A DNA stretch of 39,436 bases from Cytophagales bacterium (GTDB lineage Bacteria; Bacteroidota; Bacteroidia; Cytophagales; Microscillaceae), in assembly GCA_013298075.1 (NCBI GenBank), contig JAAFJG010000043.1:1-39436 (forward strand), read 5' to 3'. Shown piece by piece: positions 1,999-17,459 of this stretch (the first letter of the stretch is position 1; the number at the start of each line of letters is the position of its first letter). The notes beneath the pieces were generated by a model that was not told the DNA's origin, searched no databases, and worked only from the letters and a program-made list of their open reading frames with translations. Position numbers and translations under genes: made by a program.

Positions 1999-2487
1999 AT
2001 GAAAACGTCTTTTGTTGAATATTCACTTAATTTTTTATCTGCTCACACAGAAAACCAAGAAATTCCTTTTGAGGAATTAGAATATCCTGATTGTTTGAGC
2101 GAATTTGCGTGTGGAAACGTAGTCATTTTTGAAAATGACGAGGAAGGAAAGTTTATTTATTTAGAAAATATCGAACTTCCTGCTTTCTTTTTTCATTTTA
2201 ATTTTGCGTTACAAAAATTAAAACAAACGCCCAATGAAGTCGCAGCCGTAGCAAGTATGTATCAAACTTATGATTTGGTATTAGAATTACAAAATAATAC
2301 GTTGAATATAACCTCAAAATCAGGAGAAAATGATAAAATAGTAACATTAAATTTTGATACGTTAGAAAAAAGTTTTGAAGGTATGCAAATGAATTTATTC
2401 GAAGATTTGAAAATTGTTTATACAAATCTCAAAAAATTACCTGATTTTGCACAAATGGAAAAAGATTTTAACAACTATTCTGCTTAA
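1999..2487 (+). CDS. Hypothetical protein, 162 aa
   Basis: I do not recognise this protein. It is acidic, lacks a signal peptide or membrane segment, and appears to be a mixed alpha/beta cytosolic domain (hydrophobic strands near residues 40-75 and a helical C-terminus around 125-160). It is clearly a real gene by position: it starts 12 bases after proline dehydrogenase and ends 4 bases before the peroxiredoxin start, so it is part of the same transcript. There is no basis for a functional call beyond association with proline oxidation and peroxide defence. Confidence 0.75.
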   Translation: MKTSFVEYSLNFLSAHTENQEIPFEELEYPDCLSEFACGNVVIFENDEEGKFIYLENIELPAFFFHFNFALQKLKQTPNEVAAVASMYQTYDLVLELQNNTLNITSKSGENDKIVTLNFDTLEKSFEGMQMNLFEDLKIVYTNLKKLPDFAQMEKDFNNYSA

Positions 2488-2491
2488 AAAT

Positions 2492-2944
2492 ATGCCATTA
2501 AAATTGCACACACAAGCACCTGACTTTGTGCTTCCTTCTACTTCTGGAGTGGATTTTAAATTGTCTGAAACATTTGCCGACAAAGCTTGTATCATTTATT
2601 TTTATCCCAAAGATTTTACTTCGGTTTGTACTGCGGAGGCTTGCGATTTTAGAGATTCACACGCATTTTTTAAAAATTTGGGCGTAGAAGTTGTTGGAAT
2701 TAATAGAGATAGTATCGAAACGCATCTCAAATTTAAAGAAGTAAATCATCTAAATTTTGAATTATTGACCGATGATAAGGGAGAGGTTTCTCAACAATAT
2801 AAATCAATGGTGCCTATTTTGGGTATGGTTCGTAGAGTTACTTATCTATTGGATAAACATCATATTGTCAAAGCCGTTTATGAAAGTATGTTTGAAGCCA
2901 AACAACATATCAAAGAAATGATAAAAGAATTAGAGAAAAATTAA
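2492..2944 (+). CDS. Thioredoxin-dependent peroxiredoxin, BCP/PrxQ type
   Basis: The protein has 150 residues from the ATG at 2492. An upstream in-frame ATG at 2414 would add 26 residues overlapping the previous gene and is not conserved in character, since the family starts just before the APDF segment. The peroxidatic cysteine is C45 in FTSVCTAEACDFRD, with a resolving cysteine at C50, five residues on. This is the alpha2 arrangement of atypical 2-Cys PrxQ/BCP enzymes, which reduce H2O2 and organic hydroperoxides using thioredoxin. It is the last gene of the four-gene cluster and is followed by a terminator hairpin at 3062-3105. H2O2 from flavin-enzyme side reactions might explain its pairing with proline dehydrogenase, but this is inference. 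Confidence 0.92.
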   Translation: MPLKLHTQAPDFVLPSTSGVDFKLSETFADKACIIYFYPKDFTSVCTAEACDFRDSHAFFKNLGVEVVGINRDSIETHLKFKEVNHLNFELLTDDKGEVSQQYKSMVPILGMVRRVTYLLDKHHIVKAVYESMFEAKQHIKEMIKELEKN

Positions 2945-3061
2945 TCTGTATTTTTTCTCAAAAAAACTAAAATTTCTTACTGTAATTAAAAGTGTGGAAT
3001 TACCTATGTGCTAAAATCTTTGTTATTTTAAAAACTCTAATACTTAAAATAGTTAAGGCAT

Positions 3062-3105
3062 AAAAAAATAGGAACTTACTTTTGTAATGTTCCTATCTTT
3101 TTTTT
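3062..3105. terminator. Bidirectional intrinsic terminator
   Basis: An 8-bp perfect stem (ATAGGAAC 3068-3075 with GTTCCTAT 3089-3096) is flanked by A-tracts on the left and T-tracts on the right. It can therefore end transcription from the peroxiredoxin cluster on the plus strand and from the lipoprotein gene (ending at 3121) on the minus strand. Confidence 0.75.
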
Positions 3106-3120
3106 AAGTGTTATCTAAAA

Positions 3121-3945
3121 TTAAATAGATATTCTTATGTGACTATAACCTAATATTTTTGCCCATTGTGAATCTCCAAGATTAGTAGATTTAAAAGATG
3201 CTCTAATAATACTAATAGTTGCTCCTTTACCATTTTCACGTCTATCTTTAGGTATCATATCGAAAGCAGACTTTGGAATTACAAAACTTCCATTATCGAC
3301 TACTGTTTCAGCAAAGGCAAACCCAATACCAGCACCATTATTATCACTTGGGATTTTTGGATAAGTAATAACCACCAAAACTCCGTTGTAATTATGTCTA
3401 TCAGAATTCCACTCTATTTGTAGGTCTTGCTCTGCCGAAATACAATTTTTTATTCCTTCTTTTTTTACAGGATTTGTAATTTGTAATTTTTCTGGAACAT
3501 ATAAAGAATCAATATACATACCATTTTTTGAGGTAGGTAATTGAAAAACGACATTCCTTCCATAAAAATTTTTGCAAGTAGAAGCATCAGTTATATAATA
3601 GCTATTTGAAGTTCTATAAGGTATAGCAATATTATTAATTGTTATTTGTCCATTATCATAACAATCGTATTTTCCTATTTCATTATTTATACATCCACCT
3701 GCTTGGTAACCTAAATCATTAGTAAGCGTCATCGAATCACTTGGAGTATTTTGACCATCGTACCAGAGTGTAAAATATGCCGTTGATTTCTGGTTTAAAA
3801 ATTTATAATATTCAGAAGGAGGCATCAAAGAACCTCTTTTAACCAAATTACTATAATTAAGAGAAGTTGGTTCAATATTATTTTTCACTGTGCAATTAGA
3901 TAATATAATCGCAAATAATAGAAAATATAAAGATATTTTTTTCAT
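3121..3945 (-). CDS. Predicted lipoprotein, unknown function
   Basis: The 274-residue protein has a clear lipoprotein signal peptide: MKK, a hydrophobic core, and a lipobox L-S-N-C with C18 as the predicted lipidated cysteine. The mature part looks like a beta-rich globular domain, with several Gly/Asn/Tyr-rich strands and a few cysteines. I cannot place it in a family. It lies 25 bases downstream of another exported protein gene on the same strand, so the two are likely cotranscribed. Their neighbour on the other side is a broken lnt gene, whose product normally acylates lipoproteins such as this one. Confidence 0.8.
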   Translation of the reverse strand: MKKISLYFLLFAIILSNCTVKNNIEPTSLNYSNLVKRGSLMPPSEYYKFLNQKSTAYFTLWYDGQNTPSDSMTLTNDLGYQAGGCINNEIGKYDCYDNGQITINNIAIPYRTSNSYYITDASTCKNFYGRNVVFQLPTSKNGMYIDSLYVPEKLQITNPVKKEGIKNCISAEQDLQIEWNSDRHNYNGVLVVITYPKIPSDNNGAGIGFAFAETVVDNGSFVIPKSAFDMIPKDRRENGKGATISIIRASFKSTNLGDSQWAKILGYSHIRISI

Positions 3946-3970
3946 AAAGGTAAAGTTTAATTTTTTTTAA

Positions 3971-4648
3971 TTAATAACAATTATTAAGAGAATATTTTCT
4001 AACAGTATTACAATCTCCAATACCACATTGGCTCGTACCAACTCTAAAATCTAATGGAATGTCTCCAACTGTTCGTCCATCATAACTTTTTTGTATTGTG
4101 TCAAATCTAACTTTTCTTGGTAAATTTGTTACTGAGCAGCCTCCAATTCCAAATCCACCACCTGGTGTAGTAAACGAGCATGTTCCTTGTGCAAATTGTT
4201 TTGTTAGCAGTCCTACGTTAAGCTCAAATACTCTATCTGAAGGAACTTGTATTTGTATAAATGGGCTTTGACTTCCAAACTGAGTGGCAATTTGGTCTGA
4301 GACTAGAATATCATCACTGACATCTTGGGCATAAACCCTAATTCTCATAGAAGCGAACTGACATTTTGTATTGTCCCTAACAGAACTTTCAGGTGGAAAA
4401 TTTAATTGCCCAAAATTAAGTGAAAAAAAACTCAAAGGACATCCTCCTGTGTCATATGGTGATAAAGGCTGACTTCCAATTGGATTTTTATAGGAATTAA
4501 GCTTTAACAAAACAGATTTCATTGGTACAATCGGGTCACTTGGTCCGCTTGAATGTCCAAAAATTATTTTTGGTGGGAAAAACATACACAAAGGGATAAT
4601 TATCAAAAATATCGCCAAGTATTTAACTTTGTTTATTTTCATAAGCAT
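3971..4648 (-). CDS. Predicted secreted cysteine-containing protein, unknown function
   Basis: The protein has 225 residues with an N-terminal hydrophobic signal sequence (core around residues 10-30). An ATG two codons in, at 4642, is an equally good start. After the signal it has seven cysteines, several in Gly-Gly-Cys or Cys-x4-Cys-like contexts near the C-terminus, consistent with disulfides in an exported protein. It has no recognisable domain. It is the first gene of a two-gene minus-strand unit with the lipoprotein at 3121-3945. A TAACTTTG sequence (minus strand, 4684-4691) 36 bases upstream could be its -7 promoter box, though no well-spaced -33 box is visible. Confidence 0.7.
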   Translation of the reverse strand: MLMKINKVKYLAIFLIIIPLCMFFPPKIIFGHSSGPSDPIVPMKSVLLKLNSYKNPIGSQPLSPYDTGGCPLSFFSLNFGQLNFPPESSVRDNTKCQFASMRIRVYAQDVSDDILVSDQIATQFGSQSPFIQIQVPSDRVFELNVGLLTKQFAQGTCSFTTPGGGFGIGGCSVTNLPRKVRFDTIQKSYDGRTVGDIPLDFRVGTSQCGIGDCNTVRKYSLNNCY

Positions 4649-11450: not shown

Positions 11451-11505
11451 TTTTTTGTTTTTTTTGATGTGGTTGATTTTTTATCAACACTTTTTATAAT
11501 TTACC

Positions 11506-11588
11506 TACAAAAGTAAATATAAAAATTAAAATATCCAAAAAAAATAATTTATGTTATTTCAAATTTTTTGTAGGAAATTTTGATGTTT
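11506..11588. repeat. Direct repeat copy A flanking the restriction-modification region
   Basis: These 83 bases match 14961-15041 in the same orientation at roughly 88% with two small gaps. The copy contains a promoter for the DMT transporter (minus strand). The paired copy lies beyond the RM operon and the glycosyltransferase remnant, so the two bracket about 3.4 kb. Confidence 0.75.
11508..11539 (-). promoter_or_regulatory. Promoter of the DMT transporter gene
   Basis: On the minus strand this is TTTG (11536-11539), a 20-base spacer and TACTTTTG (11508-11515), a full match to the Bacteroidota consensus, 58 bases before the start codon. Confidence 0.7.
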
Positions 11589-11730: not shown

Positions 11731-12783
11731 TTAAGATATTTTCGCCAGTTTTAATAACTCTTGAACACGTTGCAACTTATATTCACCATCTTTAAAACAA
11801 GATTGATTATAGATATTTGCAAGGTTTTTAGTGGTTATTTTTTGTTTGATTTGCTCATCTTGATTAATCAAATCATATTCTTGAAATAAAAACCATTTTT
11901 GTAATAATTGTAAATAGTCTTTTTTGTGTTCAATTCGATTTTTAGGTTCAGTCAAAAAAGTCAATTCATCTATAAAATTAGGAGTAGCAATATTATTGAT
12001 AATTGCTAAAATTTCTTGCATCGTTTGTTGGTTTCCTGAGAGATAATCCCACAATTCGCCTGATAATAATATTTCTGCCTCATCAAAAAATTTAGTAAAC
12101 CCAACGCTGTAATCCATAAAACGTTTTTTGTCATAATCACAAGGTATATCACTCAAAGGGTCAAAAGGAAAAGCCAAAAAATATTTAATTTCTTTTTGTG
12201 GATAACGAAGTTTTAAAGCGGCTTTTGCTTCCAAAATCTTTTGTTTTTCTACCTTAAAAACGCCTTTATTGGGTTTTACGGTTTTGATTTCCACACAAAC
12301 TACTTCTGTATCATTTTGAAAAAATACATCAGCCGTAAAATCTGTACCTTCCACCAAATTACTTGGGGTAGGAATTGTAAAAATAGCATTGTTTTCGTTT
12401 ACTAAAGAAGGTTTTTGATTGCCATTACTCAAATCGGTAATGATTGTAGCAATATTATTTCTTTGTGTTTGTTCTACTTTTAAATTATTATTTTTTCTTG
12501 TTGTAAATTCTTTCTTTTCACCTCCACAAAGAATATGGGCTGTATTTTCGAAGAACGATTGACCTATTTCATCTACTATAAAGGGAAACGTTGTGTTTAT
12601 TGTAATTTTTTTTTGAATAGAAATATTGATAGATTTTGAACAAACAGAGAAATCAGATAGATATTTTTGGTAAGCATCTTCTAACATTAAATTTTCAAAA
12701 AAAAAATTTGGAAAATATGTCATTTGTTGGTACAAACAATTTATGAGTTGTACGGCAACCTCTTGCTTTAAGTTTTTATTCAT
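11731..12783 (-). CDS. PD-(D/E)XK type II restriction endonuclease, TdeIII-like
   Basis: The 350-residue protein carries a nuclease active site of the PD-(D/E)XK kind: D152 in FTADVFF, then E165-I-K167 in VEIKTVKPN. The following segments (YFLAFPFDPLS around 201-211 and a later LLSGELWDYLSG) recall the TdeIII family of type II endonucleases, from memory of that family's pattern. The start overlaps the upstream PmeII-like nuclease gene by 8 bases, so the two are translated from one message headed by the methyltransferase. It is the last gene of the operon. A second nuclease beside a single methyltransferase is unusual. The nuclease call is firm; the TdeIII placement is not. Confidence 0.72.
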   Translation of the reverse strand: MNKNLKQEVAVQLINCLYQQMTYFPNFFFENLMLEDAYQKYLSDFSVCSKSINISIQKKITINTTFPFIVDEIGQSFFENTAHILCGGEKKEFTTRKNNNLKVEQTQRNNIATIITDLSNGNQKPSLVNENNAIFTIPTPSNLVEGTDFTADVFFQNDTEVVCVEIKTVKPNKGVFKVEKQKILEAKAALKLRYPQKEIKYFLAFPFDPLSDIPCDYDKKRFMDYSVGFTKFFDEAEILLSGELWDYLSGNQQTMQEILAIINNIATPNFIDELTFLTEPKNRIEHKKDYLQLLQKWFLFQEYDLINQDEQIKQKITTKNLANIYNQSCFKDGEYKLQRVQELLKLAKIS

Positions 12784-13528
12784 TATTTAGCAGTTTTTTC
12801 CCTGAATTAAATTTTAAAAGTCTTTCCCAATTTATTTTACCATTATCACAAAATTGATTCGTGAAATCAACAGTTAATCGGTTAATAAGTCCAAAATAAG
12901 TTTCATAAAACTCATCATTCTTTTCTTTTGCTTTATGTCCTATTGGCTTAATAATTTGGGTATAGAAATCTTCTTCATTACTTATTAATTCCCAAAATTC
13001 TTGTCCACAAATTTTGTAATATCCATCTTCTTTAGGGTTTTTGTTTCTTTTTTTTCCAAAACAACAACCATTTACAATCATCACTTTTTTTTTCGTTTGT
13101 TTTTCTAAAATTTCTTTGGCATTTTTTGCATTAATTTTTAGTTGTTTTAATTGGCTTGAATTACCCCAATTCCAACCTGCTTTTATTTCTATTGCATAGA
13201 TTGAATTTTCAGTTTCAAATTCTAAATCCATACCTATTAAGCCAGATTTTTTAGCTATAAAAACTTTATTGGCTACAAATATTGCTAATCCTTCCATAAA
13301 ATGCCCAAATAATGTTTCTTCTTGAGATTGCAAAAACGCATCTATAAAGCCTTTTATCAAATCTTGGGCTGTTTGTACATTTTTAGCACGAAACAAATAA
13401 GGATTTTTTTGCTCCAAAATTTTGCTTAAATCTACCTTATTGCTAATATAATCTAAGCGTTGTTGATGAAAATGAGTGATATTTTCTTCAACGTATTCAT
13501 AAACATCTTGTAAATTAATTTTATTCAT
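12776..13528 (-). CDS. PmeII-family type II restriction endonuclease
   Basis: The protein has 250 residues from the ATG at 13528. A longer frame to 13624 exists but would bury the upstream small gene, and the recognised homology starts at MNKINLQDVYEYVEENI. Family marks are NPYLFRAKNVQTAQDLI (43-59) and LFGHFMEGLAIFVA (73-86), followed by the catalytic D101 in GMDLEF and E114-I-K116 in YAIEIKAGWNWGNSSQ. The later GYYKICGQEFWELIS and KPIGHKAKEKNDEF segments are also typical. It is cytosolic and cuts DNA left unprotected by the cognate methylase. Its start overlaps the end of the 69-aa gene by 8 bases, and its end overlaps the second nuclease. Confidence 0.88.
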   Translation of the reverse strand: MNKINLQDVYEYVEENITHFHQQRLDYISNKVDLSKILEQKNPYLFRAKNVQTAQDLIKGFIDAFLQSQEETLFGHFMEGLAIFVANKVFIAKKSGLIGMDLEFETENSIYAIEIKAGWNWGNSSQLKQLKINAKNAKEILEKQTKKKVMIVNGCCFGKKRNKNPKEDGYYKICGQEFWELISNEEDFYTQIIKPIGHKAKEKNDEFYETYFGLINRLTVDFTNQFCDNGKINWERLLKFNSGKKLLNNE

Positions 13529-13730
13529 TGTCAGAAATAATTTGAGTTTGTGTGTAAGTATGTTCAATTTCAGTAATCGTAAAGTTATGTTTTTTTTTAT
13601 CATTTTCAGATGACAAATCTTCAATTCCTGATGTAAAAAATTCAGCCAATTCTAATGCTAATTTCTCATTTTCAGCATCAACATTAATTAAAAATGATTT
13701 TGTTATTGCTACTTGAAATGTTTTTTTCAT
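13521..13730 (-). CDS. Small 69-aa protein between methylase and nuclease
   Basis: This small acidic protein lies in the middle of the RM operon. Its ATG overlaps the methyltransferase stop (ATGA, 13727-13730), and its end overlaps the PmeII-like nuclease start. The N-terminus, KKTFQVAITKSFLINVDAEN followed by a helix with EKLALELAEF, resembles the DpnD/PcfM-type small domain (strand - strand - VdAes..eA.e.. helix) that accompanies some RM cassettes. I see no helix-turn-helix, so it is not an obvious C (controller) protein. Tight coupling on both sides suggests a fixed stoichiometry with the enzymes. Confidence 0.65.
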   Translation of the reverse strand: MKKTFQVAITKSFLINVDAENEKLALELAEFFTSGIEDLSSENDKKKHNFTITEIEHTYTQTQIISDNE

Positions 13731-14554
13731 AATATTACATATTTTATGGGTTCAATATTTTTTTTCAGCATATCATAATATTCAGGCAAAATTTCTATGC
13801 CTACCGAGTTTCTATTCATTCTTTGTGCAACTGATAAAGTAGTTCCAGAACCTGCAAAAGGGTCAAGCAGCATGTCATTTTCTTTGGTAAAAAGTTTAAT
13901 AAACCATTCAGGTAAGTTTTCAGGAAACGCTGCGGGGTGGTTTTTATTGCTACATTCGGTTGCAAAATGTAAAACATTGGTGGGGTAAACGGTTTCTTTA
14001 CCTACCCAATTAGAAATATTTTTACCAAAACCACTGCCATTTTTAGCATTATCACGAATTTTATCTGTTTCGCTTAGGTTTTTCAAACGACCTTTTGCCC
14101 AATCGCCAATCGGAACTTTTACCTCGTCTTGATACATATTAAATTTCTTGTCCTTATTAAACTGCAAAAGCCTTTCCCAACTATCTCTAAAACGGTTTGA
14201 CCACTTGCCAGGATATGAGTTTTTTTTATGCCAAATAAATTCTTCTGTCCAAAACCAGCCTTGTTTGCGAAGTTCAAAAATCAATTCTAAAACATATGTG
14301 CTTCTCTCTCCTTCTATTACTTTTTCTTTGATATTTAAGACAAATGTACCTGTTGGTTTTAATACACGCAAAAGTTCATTGGAAATGGGTAAAAACCATT
14401 CTACATATTTTTCTGCTTGAATACCACCATACGTATTTTTACGTTGGTCTGCATAAGGAGGTGAGGTAAAAATGAGGTCAATACAATTGTCGGGAAGATG
14501 TTTTAAAACCTCTTTACAATCGCCTAAAAAAATATCTGTTTTTATTTCTATCAT
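13727..14554 (-). CDS. Beta-class site-specific DNA methyltransferase (N4-cytosine or N6-adenine)
   Basis: The 275-residue protein has motif order beta: catalytic TSPPY at residues 30-34, then a SAM-binding DPFAGSGTT at 231-239 followed by SVGIEILPEY. The catalytic SPPY form is frequent among N4-cytosine methylases but also occurs in N6-adenine enzymes. It is the first gene of a four-gene operon: methylase, small protein, PmeII-like nuclease, TdeIII-like nuclease, all overlapping by 4-8 bases. Having the methylase first lets DNA be protected before the nucleases build up. The upstream region has an inverted repeat and a candidate promoter (14643-14690). Confidence 0.93.
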   Translation of the reverse strand: MIEIKTDIFLGDCKEVLKHLPDNCIDLIFTSPPYADQRKNTYGGIQAEKYVEWFLPISNELLRVLKPTGTFVLNIKEKVIEGERSTYVLELIFELRKQGWFWTEEFIWHKKNSYPGKWSNRFRDSWERLLQFNKDKKFNMYQDEVKVPIGDWAKGRLKNLSETDKIRDNAKNGSGFGKNISNWVGKETVYPTNVLHFATECSNKNHPAAFPENLPEWFIKLFTKENDMLLDPFAGSGTTLSVAQRMNRNSVGIEILPEYYDMLKKNIEPIKYVIL

Positions 14555-14732: not shown

Positions 14733-14960
14733 TCATTCACTCAAAATCCCCCACCATTTTTCACTCAATATCTGTTCTGAAAACTCAGTTTCTGCTAATT
14801 TTCTCGCATTATTTCCGTATATTTTTTCTTGATTTTCTTGCCAAATTTCACAATTAAAAAAACTTTCGGGAGTTTCGCTATGGATATAAAAACCACATTT
14901 ATTTTATTTTTCAAATAGATATTTTTTTGATTGTGGGTTATAATGAATATGTACTTCCAC
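14733..14960 (-). pseudogene. Remnant of a GT4 glycosyltransferase, internally deleted
   Basis: Read on the minus strand, the region starts without an ATG as VEVHIHYNPQSKKYLFEK, meets TAA, and continues in frame with NKCGFYIHSETPESFF through to KLAETEFSEQILSEKWWGIL and a stop at 14733. Both parts match the intact glycosyltransferase at 16287-17459. The first part corresponds to about residues 32-50 and the second to its last 55 residues, so some 285 codons in between are gone. The 3' part (14741-14905) is about 93% identical in DNA to 16301-16465. It is a decayed second copy. It sits beside its own former promoter-like sequence at 14961-15041. Confidence 0.88.
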
Positions 14961-15041
14961 TACAAAAATAAATATAAAAATTAAAATATCCAAAAAAATA
15001 GTTGATGTTGTTTCAAATTTTTTGCGGAAGTTTTAATGTTT
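14961..15041. repeat. Direct repeat copy B flanking the restriction-modification region
   Basis: This is the second copy of the sequence at 11506-11588, in the same orientation. It retains the minus-strand promoter pattern TTTG-N20-TATTTTTG (14963-14994), directed into the dead glycosyltransferase remnant. The 86 bases between it and the toxin gene end at 15128 show nothing further. Confidence 0.72.
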
Positions 15042-15127: not shown

Positions 15128-15562
15128 TTATTTATTTTGTAGTAACTCTTTGATTTCAGTAGGAATAGTTGGACTATCTAACAATCCTTGAATAACTTGA
15201 GCATAATGTCCTCCAGAGATTTCACCTTTGTATTCAATTAAATTAGTTTCATACATTACTTTAAAATCATCTATTGAATATTCAAAAAAAGTATTACAAT
15301 CTACAAAAGTATCTTTAATTAGTCCATTTTCATTATCAGGTTTTATCCAAATCAAAGTAGTATGCAAACCTAACATTTCAATACGTTTTTTGCGTTTATC
15401 TTCTTTATCTGATGTGCAACAAACTAAAATTATGCTATCATTTTTTTCTTTTAGTATGCAAATAAAGTAATGTGGAACGACAGTATTGAGTTTATTGGTT
15501 GAAAAATAGTATATTTTTTTCTCGTCAATACCTTGCAGAAAAAATTCTATCGGTAATTTCAT
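15128..15562 (-). CDS. Candidate toxin of a Panacea-type toxin-antitoxin pair
   Basis: The 144-residue cytosolic protein has no firm family match. The central part has beta strands arranged as PHYFICILKE, IILVCCTSD and TFVDCNTFFEYSIDDF. This recalls the small SH3-like barrel of MazF/PemK-type toxins, in which a strand of the form 'VDxNxxxxxS' is common; the likeness is weak. Its ATG overlaps the stop of the Panacea gene (ATGA, 15559-15562), so translation is coupled and the antitoxin is made first. Panacea antitoxins are known to be paired with very diverse toxins, and position is the main support for the toxin role. Confidence 0.6.
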   Translation of the reverse strand: MKLPIEFFLQGIDEKKIYYFSTNKLNTVVPHYFICILKEKNDSIILVCCTSDKEDKRKKRIEMLGLHTTLIWIKPDNENGLIKDTFVDCNTFFEYSIDDFKVMYETNLIEYKGEISGGHYAQVIQGLLDSPTIPTEIKELLQNK

Positions 15563-16149
15563 ATCAAGTTACTAATAATTTGATTTTCTAAAAATACTTC
15601 TTTATTGAGTTCCAATAATTCTCCGTTTTGCTCAAATAAATAGTGAGAATTTTCATTATTTTGAAAAAAATCTTGATAATTCATCTCAAAACGTGAAGAA
15701 TGTCCCATTTGTAAACTCTTTTCAAATTTTTTCCACTCAGGATATTCGTGAGAAAGTTCTGATAACATATATTCATCTAAATTTCCAAAATTATCATAAA
15801 TAAGATTCATTACTACCAAATCACTGTCAGAAAAAACTTTTTTTTGCACTTCTGTTTTAGATTTTATCATATAACGCCCTATGTTTTCGAGTATTTGCTC
15901 TCGTAATTCTCTTTCATTATCAGCCAAATAATCTGAATTATCAGCCAAATCTTTGGTACTTGAGGGAATCGGTCCTTTGGGGAGAGCAAAATATATATCA
16001 TTTAAAATCGGTCTACCATATTTACGCAAATGCAACCTATCTGAAAGCCAAACCAATTTAAAGGCTTTCATTTTGTTAATTTCTCCACCTTCCTTTTGAG
16101 CAAAATAAGAAAGTGTGTGAACTGCTTTTTTATGATTAAATCCTACCAT
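15559..16149 (-). CDS. Panacea-domain (DUF4065/SocA-like) antitoxin
   Basis: The 196-residue protein begins KKAVHTLSYFAQKEGGEINKMKAFKLVWLSDR, followed by HLRKYGRPILNDIYFALPKGPIPS. This is the classical Panacea/DUF4065 pattern, with helices around a [K/L]L.yls[D/L] core and the 'G..i.nd.y.a...GPv' loop. Proteins with this domain neutralise partner toxins, and in Caulobacter SocA delivers SocB to ClpXP. It is followed with a 4-base overlap by the 144-aa candidate toxin. A strong promoter lies at 16220-16251. Confidence 0.85.
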   Translation of the reverse strand: MVGFNHKKAVHTLSYFAQKEGGEINKMKAFKLVWLSDRLHLRKYGRPILNDIYFALPKGPIPSSTKDLADNSDYLADNERELREQILENIGRYMIKSKTEVQKKVFSDSDLVVMNLIYDNFGNLDEYMLSELSHEYPEWKKFEKSLQMGHSSRFEMNYQDFFQNNENSHYLFEQNGELLELNKEVFLENQIISNLI

Positions 16150-16286: not shown

Positions 16287-17459
16287 TCAACTGTATCCAT
16301 TCAAAATCCCCCACCACTTTTCGCTCAATATCTGCTCCGAAAACTCAGTTTCTGCTAATTTTCTCGCATTATTTCCGTATATTTCTTCTTGATTTCCTTG
16401 CCAAATTTCACAACTAAAAAAACTTTCGGGAGTTTCGCTGTTTATATAAAAACCACATTTATTTTGTTCAATCAAATCTTTTATCCAACCTTTTGTGTTC
16501 GTAATAATAGGTTTACCAGCTGCCAAAGCATCAAAAAATTTATTGGGACTATTTGCCTCTAAAGCTTTGTTTTGTTTGAAAGAAATATACACCGCATTTG
16601 CTTTTTCCATCAAATTTTTTATCATCAATTTATCTACAAAAGACATAAAAACTACATTTTTTAGTTGATTTTTTTCTACAAAATTTGCTAATTTTTCCTT
16701 TTCTGCTCCATCGCCTACTATCAAAAATTGCCATTCATTTTTTTGATTTTGTTGAGCAAATTGAGCAATTTTTAGCATTTGTGTCAAATCATTTGCGTAG
16801 CCAAGCGTGCCTGTGTATAATAAAATTTTTTGCGTATTATTTTTTTTATCGATATTTTTTGTGTCAATATTTTCTAATTTTTTTTGAAAAAATAACGTAT
16901 CCGAAAAATTAGAAATTACCTCGACTTTTGTATCAATATTGCGTAATTCAATGCCTTTTTTCATCAAAGGCGAAAGAGCAATGATTTTTTTTGCGTTTTG
17001 ATAGATTTTTTTTTGATAATAATAAATGATTTTTAGTAGCCATTTATTTTTGATAATTCCTAAACTTTCAGGAACTTCTGGCCACAAATCTCTTACTTCA
17101 AAAATATAAGGCACTTTTTTTCGTAAAAAATAAGCCACCAAACCCACACTCAAAGGCGTAGAAGTAGCATAAATTAAATCAGCAGGCAATAATTTTTTGG
17201 CTAATCGATAACTTTGATACATAAATTGTAGAAAAGATTTTATTCTCCCTAAAATTCCTAAAGAATTATCATAAAAAATAGGTAATCTATGAATTTTGAT
17301 GCCTTCTATTTCTTCGTATAGATATTTTTTTTGATTATGGGCTGTGATAATATGAACTTCGCAATTTTTTTCTACTAATTTTTTGGCTAAATAATAAGAA
17401 CGAATCGCACCACTTTCCTCAAAAGTTCTAAAATATTGATGAATATAAATAATTTTCAT
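16287..17459 (-). CDS. Glycosyltransferase family 4 (GT-B fold)
   Basis: The 390-residue GT4 enzyme transfers a sugar from a nucleotide sugar, probably in surface polysaccharide or lipid glycan synthesis. It has an N-terminal Rossmann half with KIIYIHQYFRTFEESGAIRS and a linker region around 190-215. The C-terminal half has LLYTGTLGYANDL, FLIVGDGAEKEKLANF, and the nucleotide-sugar segment EANSPNKFFDALAAGKPIIT with its ExxSP.K pattern. The KIYIHQYF/ARS start is like WbuB-type aminosugar transferases. The start codon lies at the edge of a dispersed repeat (17454-17574), so its upstream region is repeat-derived. A decayed duplicate is found at 14733-14960. Confidence 0.93.
   Translation of the reverse strand: MKIIYIHQYFRTFEESGAIRSYYLAKKLVEKNCEVHIITAHNQKKYLYEEIEGIKIHRLPIFYDNSLGILGRIKSFLQFMYQSYRLAKKLLPADLIYATSTPLSVGLVAYFLRKKVPYIFEVRDLWPEVPESLGIIKNKWLLKIIYYYQKKIYQNAKKIIALSPLMKKGIELRNIDTKVEVISNFSDTLFFQKKLENIDTKNIDKKNNTQKILLYTGTLGYANDLTQMLKIAQFAQQNQKNEWQFLIVGDGAEKEKLANFVEKNQLKNVVFMSFVDKLMIKNLMEKANAVYISFKQNKALEANSPNKFFDALAAGKPIITNTKGWIKDLIEQNKCGFYINSETPESFFSCEIWQGNQEEIYGNNARKLAETEFSEQILSEKWWGILNGYS

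Follow-up and report, generated by a model that had tools for sequence, protein, structure and literature searches.

How can one DNA methyltransferase live with two different restriction nucleases in a single operon? The question is raised by a locus on the minus strand of a 39,436-nucleotide stretch of DNA from a Cytophagales bacterium (GenBank assembly GCA_013298075.1, contig JAAFJG010000043.1), which is referred to below, at its full length, as the window. Four open reading frames (ORFs) are chained there in the order Mβ (methyltransferase), sA (small protein), R1 and R2 (nucleases), with overlaps of 4, 8 and 8 bases. An earlier note, made from the bare sequence, had drawn attention to these overlaps and to the puzzle of one methylase beside two intact nuclease cores, and on both points we agree with it; the catalytic residues that it named (D101/E114/K116 in R1 and D152/E165/K167 in R2) are likewise correct, and both cores are intact in alignments. 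The locus possesses the adjoining, separate methylase and nuclease genes with intact catalytic motifs that a type II restriction-modification (RM) system requires.

Our analysis suggests that the locus is probably a composite type II RM operon, formed when one GGNCC-type system overwrote another, in which Mβ protects against both nucleases. The arrangement is real. It is an unusual composite and does not amount to a new type of machinery.

The two nucleases are distant homologs and likely share a core target

R1 belongs to the EcoO109I family (PF14511, 3e-68, 230 bits against a cut-off of 22.5), and its relatives carry the NCBI name "PmeII family". The ORF list prints a longer, TTG-started form of R1; relatives align from the ATG used here. 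Among 23 aligned R1-type sequences, the window included (L112 and L114 were left out because of a stop within the coordinates used), D101 and K116 never vary, and some distant members have S, T or G in place of E114. R2 belongs to the TdeIII family (PF09520, 3e-42, 145 bits against a cut-off of 27.2, over residues 70–265), as does the NCBI name of its relatives, and it has kept the catalytic residues; all of 15 aligned R2-type sequences, that of the window among them, have D152 and K167, with either E or D at position 165.

The claim of the earlier note that the nucleases come from different families holds as far as Pfam is concerned, but the two families are distantly homologous. Their profiles align over the catalytic region and an EFW-type motif (hhalign probability 90, E 1.6e-6), and the TdeIII hidden Markov model (HMM) matches R1 of the window at 7.7e-6. 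In a six-frame search of 81 sequences, this HMM gave 64 matches in 55 sequences, with 54 inside R1-type genes and none in reversed sequences.

The predicted structures agree with this relationship. The AlphaFold model of R1 (pLDDT 88.6), which contains a long helix at residues 54–90, has the EcoO109I fold, superimposing on EcoO109I (1wte) with a VIA Z of 15.9 and 3.4 Å over 232 residues; Foldseek also ranks EcoO109I first (E 2.8e-7). For the R2 model (pLDDT 82.5, with residues 26–75 as its low-confidence part), EcoO109I (1wtd) was found at Z 9.0 and 4.8 Å over 178 residues, the next other entry being at Z 6.0, and was again first in Foldseek (E 0.0095). The absence of other families below the EcoO109I rows in VIA was not used as evidence. 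By sequence, no significant solved relative was found for R1 or R2, alone or as profiles (best E 0.29 and 0.73, unrelated proteins).

Given the distant homology of the two families, and with EcoO109I as the closest solved structure found for either model, R1 and R2 likely share a GGNCC-type core target. TdeIII cuts GGNCC. According to excerpts of PMC7337904, EcoO109I cuts RGGNCCY and the related AvaII cuts GGWCC. DNA of P. mendocina is methylated at GGWCC, and PmeII, to judge by its name an enzyme of this species, is among those with the matching site (PMC8112702, in part). Of the options that the earlier note had listed, protection of both nucleases by the one methylase fits best, since both have the EcoO109I fold and named members of the families are assigned GGNCC-type sites. 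That note had conceded that the arrangement would be less remarkable if the second nuclease site were degenerate or if the enzymes were simple isoschizomers sharing one motif: the R2 core is intact, and a shared motif is probable from the homology and the models. With a common fold and probably a common core target, the arrangement is less mysterious than first claimed.

Table 1 Features of the operon and its flanks, in window positions
Feature	Position	Strand	Length	Description
Mβ	13727-14554	-	275 aa	beta-class amino-methyltransferase, predicted N4-cytosine
sA	13521-13730	-	69 aa	overlaps Mβ by 4 bases, R1 by 8
R1	12776-13528	-	250 aa from ATG	EcoO109I/PmeII-family nuclease, D101-E114-K116
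R2	11731-12783	-	350 aa	TdeIII-family nuclease, E79, D152-E165-K167; start overlaps R1 end by 8 bases
R2 residues 26-75, rewritten block	12559-12708	-		from comparison with close relatives
84-base direct repeat, left copy	11505-11588			89% identity to 14960-15041
84-base direct repeat, right copy	14960-15041			the pair brackets the operon
Glycosyltransferase 3'-end remnant copy	14735-14908	-		92.5% identity to 16295-16468; encodes glycosyltransferase C-terminus

The methyltransferase is a predicted N4-cytosine enzyme

Mβ matches PF01555 at 2e-48 and has the motif order of a beta-class N4-cytosine enzyme, with TSPPY ahead of DPFAGSGTT. Both TSPPY and DPFxGSGTT, in which x is a single variable residue, are invariant across 19 aligned sequences, the window included. 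The best solved relative of Mβ (1e-33) is M.PvuII, an N4-cytosine enzyme, so the product of Mβ is likely N4-methylcytosine (m4C). A cytosine-type methylase fits a GGNCC motif, and the motifs of Mβ and its partner genes make GGNCC its predicted target. There is a precedent in Thioflexothrix psekupsii, where an alpha-class m4C methylase acts on GGNCC, as given in excerpts of PMC5578853.

M.EcoO109I is a C5 methylase. The window has in common with EcoO109I/PmeII systems the Pfam family and fold of R1 and a methylase-nuclease pair in one operon, but differs in having a beta-class amino-methylase where those have a fused or adjacent C5 methylase (L031–L034 and contig C71 of this genome), and a second nuclease gene downstream. 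In three relatives (L031 at 2260–4200, L032 and L033), the C5 methylase and an EcoO109I-type nuclease are fused into a protein of ~646 aa. Literature searches returned nothing on TdeIII with restriction, on RGGNCCY with methyltransferase, or on RM with "one methyltransferase" and "two restriction endonucleases", and the available parts of PMC3526280 and PMC5920184 hold nothing further on these nuclease families.

The usual methylase of TdeIII systems was not found in this genome

We examined 41 TdeIII loci, excluding L109 (a fragment) and L110 (the same gene as L096). In 33 of them, a methylase of ~525 aa lies in the same short locus as the TdeIII gene, with motif I ahead of SSPPY, that is, in alpha order; loci L051–L080 span at most 3.6 kb and show their flanks only partly. 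Among the eight loci where this methylase was not found, L198 is a fragment and the sequence of L192 extends only 79 bases upstream of the gene. Of six close relatives of R2, five have the methylase (L123–L125, L219 and L220) and one (L126) does not.

In contrast, the assembly studied here (97.9% complete) contains nothing beyond shared methylase motifs, in the window or elsewhere: its best match to the 525-aa methylase is partial and scores 50 bits, against 212–942 bits for genes from TdeIII loci. R2 shares its Pfam family and catalytic core with TdeIII type II RM systems and differs from them in lacking the usual alpha-class methylase, in sitting behind another nuclease and in its divergent residues 26–75. 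In nine genomes of related loci, several of them small metagenome-assembled genomes with completeness unstated, matches to the 525-aa methylase are likewise only partial or truncated. One related locus (L004, 3663–3956) has a 97-aa open frame matching just the N-terminal part of the TdeIII methylase, which could be a leftover or a stand-alone regulator.

Remains of TdeIII systems surround R1 genes in related loci

The loci of R1 relatives indicate how such a combination could have come about. At 12 of 38, fragments of the 525-aa methylase lie upstream of the R1 gene and/or TdeIII sequence lies downstream of it (L002, L003, L004, L005, L007, L008, L009, L011, L014, L016, L017 and L036), with remains at both ends in L007, L014 and L016. 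As the 525-aa methylase HMM also matches Mβ at the shared S-adenosylmethionine (SAM) motif, a match was counted only if it fell outside Mβ and involved the first 121 positions of the HMM; L003, whose methylase piece is weak (E 0.0018), was counted for its TdeIII piece. The old methylase breaks off near residue 117–122 in L007 and L008, with Mβ beginning within about 15 bases. Only the window and L009 keep a full-length TdeIII gene, of 350 and 259 aa respectively; L017 retains 205 aa, and L003, L007, L011, L014 and L016 have pieces. For comparison, 24 control ORFs were taken from 11 further methylase loci in the genome, and they matched these flanks in 0 of 38 cases. Given 12 of 38 loci with TdeIII-system pieces against none for the controls, it appears that Mβ-R1 cassettes were written over TdeIII systems and mostly left wreckage.

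An R1 tree of 69 rows was built from matches longer than 200 residues without stops, which dropped L018, L028, L036, L037 and L038. It places the window and all 11 tree-placed composites in a clade of 18 (support 100/99), with none among the 51 rows outside, and the composite label changes 5 times on the tree, compared with 11.3 changes for shuffled labels; none of 500 shuffles gave so few. A single ancestral nesting followed by losses and a few separate captures both fit this pattern. The reverse nesting also occurs: in genome G039 (L128), the 525-aa methylase and TdeIII are accompanied by an R1-type gene with an internal deletion.

Restriction genes that replace one another are known from defence islands and restriction insertions, replacement at hotspots being treated in the accessible part of PMC12707154. 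The present locus resembles these cases, down to a repeat that brackets the operon, but differs in that one system is found repeatedly inside the remains of a distant homolog that probably shares its target. Restriction genes are also said, by Kobayashi and colleagues, to insert with long target duplication.

An HNH_2-type nuclease and a small protein lie inside the methylase-nuclease locus in L038, L117 and L218, and L037 shows the nuclease side only. The state of Mβ led us to reject the idea that this HNH nuclease is a third one guarded by it: the methylase is truncated in L117 and L038, and in L218 it stops at a SAM motif that has been altered.

The N-terminal block of R2 is rewritten

R2 retains 57 of 61 positions in residues 76–350 that are invariant in four close relatives, but only 5 of 21 in residues 26–75. 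The TdeIII N-terminal block in this region, a pattern of our own observation rather than a published one, consists of a P (as in PFH) and TxFG or TxLG. Among 40 other TdeIII members, counted without the window, L009 and L017, 38 retain P, 38 retain T and 39 retain G; R2 keeps G alone. At the T and G positions of the NTxFG-like motif, L009 has K and E, and L192 has K and V. A frameshift behind this odd N-terminus was considered and rejected, the missing motifs being absent from the other two frames.

The rewritten block directly precedes E79 and should correspond to part of the long helix of R1. Long helices of EcoO109I insert into the DNA minor groove, according to the same excerpts of PMC7337904, and the block of R2 would be their equivalent. 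As residues 26–75 are conserved in relatives and rewritten here, R2 may have changed in specificity or in activity, and the new block could mean either altered specificity or loss of binding.

Loss of binding is the core of an alternative that we regard as unlikely: R2 would be a decaying or inactive passenger, R1 alone would work with Mβ, and the block would reflect DNA binding lost under relaxed selection. The TdeIII part is mostly wreckage in related loci, 16 of the 21 clade-invariant positions have been lost, and the affected residues are those modeled with low confidence, all of which speaks for a passenger. The decay, however, would not be even, as the catalytic residues and nearly all other clade-invariant residues are kept, and a frame of 350 codons remains open in DNA of 30% G+C with its start overlapping R1. 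Another possibility is that R2, once deprived of its own methylase and placed under a foreign, slightly different one, was forced to narrow or shift its target through the N-terminal block to fit the protection given by Mβ. We consider this conceivable but doubtful; if true, the locus would be a natural case of a restriction enzyme re-specified by methylase replacement.

A proposed origin of the composite operon

In the reading we prefer, Mβ and R1 would be an ordinary pair, a methylase with an EcoO109I/PmeII-type nuclease, and R2 would be the nuclease of a TdeIII-type system whose alpha-class methyltransferase was lost. R2 would have been kept in frame behind R1, with the overlapping start coupling its translation to that of R1. 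Mβ would, most likely, methylate the common GGNCC-type core and shield the chromosome from both nucleases; R2 would then be redundant or widen the cutting of incoming DNA, and may since have shifted in specificity or activity, as its rewritten block suggests.

Several observations weigh against this origin. The GGNCC methylases of two further papers produce C5-methylcytosine rather than m4C (PMC4675945; PMC9465063, the latter in part). The specificities may also differ, as R1 could recognize RGGNCCY or GGWCC and R2 GGNCC. In 430,604 bases of the genome, GGNCC occurs less often than expected (ratio of observed to expected 0.47, the third-lowest value among 16 motifs of this type; site counts are doubled for palindromes, which inflates the z values). 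As many palindromes are depleted, this does not single GGNCC out, and its avoidance was rejected as non-specific motif evidence; the depletion of GGSCC is explained by that of GGCC. The window holds no remnant of the 525-aa methylase, and by best hits R2 and the bulk of the wreckage belong to separate TdeIII subclades, so that more than one event may be involved. Finally, in L117 (genome G377) an R1-type gene persists beside an Mβ truncated before the SAM motif, from which it follows that a nuclease gene can outlive its methylase.

It is rather improbable that R2 has evolved another specificity, with protection coming from some other methylase of the cell, for example the C5 methylase of contig C71. 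Candidates exist, in the form of 28 N6/N4-methylase matches and of that C5 methylase beside a third EcoO109I-family nuclease, and the rewritten block suggests a change in R2. Such a guard would, however, have to match R2 by coincidence while R2 sits in the Mβ operon, and a GGNCC-specific C5 methylase would merely add to Mβ.

The idea that R1 and R2 are two subunits of one enzyme, like the heterodimers of type IIT or the alpha2 beta2 enzyme BslI, which acts on a palindrome, has precedents (PMC4081073, in part) with two nuclease genes and one methylase, and here too each protein has an active site and the genes overlap in one operon, but we give it very little credence, since the target can be presumed palindromic, no R2 lies in the 8,965 bases available from L001, the nearest relative of R1 (84%), and the nuclease genes are not mutually dependent: in 395 Bacteroidota genomes, the R1 family occurs in 60 and the R2 family in 29, and both occur only in this genome and G039. 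The same counts make it unlikely that one nuclease requires the other, as the earlier note had also proposed.

If the preferred origin is correct, the locus shows how type II systems with overlapping targets displace one another: an incoming methylase that neutralizes the resident nuclease would allow the resident system to be overwritten piecewise without cell death. The related loci offer natural intermediates for this idea, both wreckage and intact composites, and the window adds a nuclease with a changed conserved N-terminal block in a genome without its own methylase.

The small protein sA

The earlier note had called sA DpnD-like and suggested that its placement lets it influence ratio or assembly. 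In the DpnII/DpnI system, DpnD stands in an operon context, and, like sA, it is a short protein inside a restriction operon. The DpnD-PcfM family (PF14207), in contrast, was matched by none of 11 aligned sA members at E<=10, and we rejected the DpnD label; the model has 46 positions and the filters discard most weak matches, which limits the reach of this test. PF14207 had no match anywhere in this genome, but as the controls were likewise without a match, this carries no information. No Pfam family matches sA above the cut-off. The 11 members all come from R1 loci, and in relatives the counterpart shifts its position or is replaced by an unrelated-looking small protein. A role in ratio or assembly found no support. 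In the phylum, sA was found in 2 of 148 genomes, this one included, and the plasmid search gave no relative.

Two small proteins of the kinds seen here stand ahead of other genes in L160 (2717–8845, genome G019), which has a D12-like methylase, so named by eye, and part of an R1-type nuclease at the end. Its queC-like flanking gene, also named by eye, borders TdeIII systems in L136 and L137 as well.

Genomic surroundings and other restriction genes

The operon is an accessory insertion. The gene pair to its left is also present in two further genomes from the genus (91% and 79% complete), but similarity ends at 11542 and 11460, the operon is not adjacent to the pair in either, and the best matches to Mβ in both have 33% identity. 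The 84-base repeat is matched more weakly at 13 other places in the genome, at best with 81% over 62 bases; as it is thus also part of a loose dispersed family, target duplication is just one possible reading of the bracketing pair. The glycosyltransferase remnant is situated between the operon and the right repeat, and the two copies of this 3' end enclose a SocA/Panacea antitoxin-like gene (15559–16149) and its overlapping partner (15128–15562).

Relatives of R1 were found in 13 plasmids, 11 of which are predicted to be mobilizable, and in 3 viral contigs. Plasmid matches H2–H12 are Enterobacterales, Aeromonas and Acinetobacter plasmids of 5.2–7.6 kb carrying R1 relatives at 37–44% identity. 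For R2, the plasmids gave one distant relative and the viral contigs searched none.

Contig C71 (L111, 2851–5269) carries the first 30 residues of Mβ (97% identity), an EcoO109I-family nuclease, a C5 methylase and a C-terminal piece of TdeIII with stops, and appears to be a further composite, in which a third system has taken the place of the middle part. Its C5 methylase is 53–55% identical, over nearly its full length, to the C5 methylases fused to R1-type nucleases in L031–L033. Several of the genome's N6/N4-methylase matches are pieces of one gene. GGCC (0.03), GATC (0.13) and CTAG (0.13) are strongly depleted in the bases sampled; together with the number of methylase matches, this suggests a heavy restriction history.

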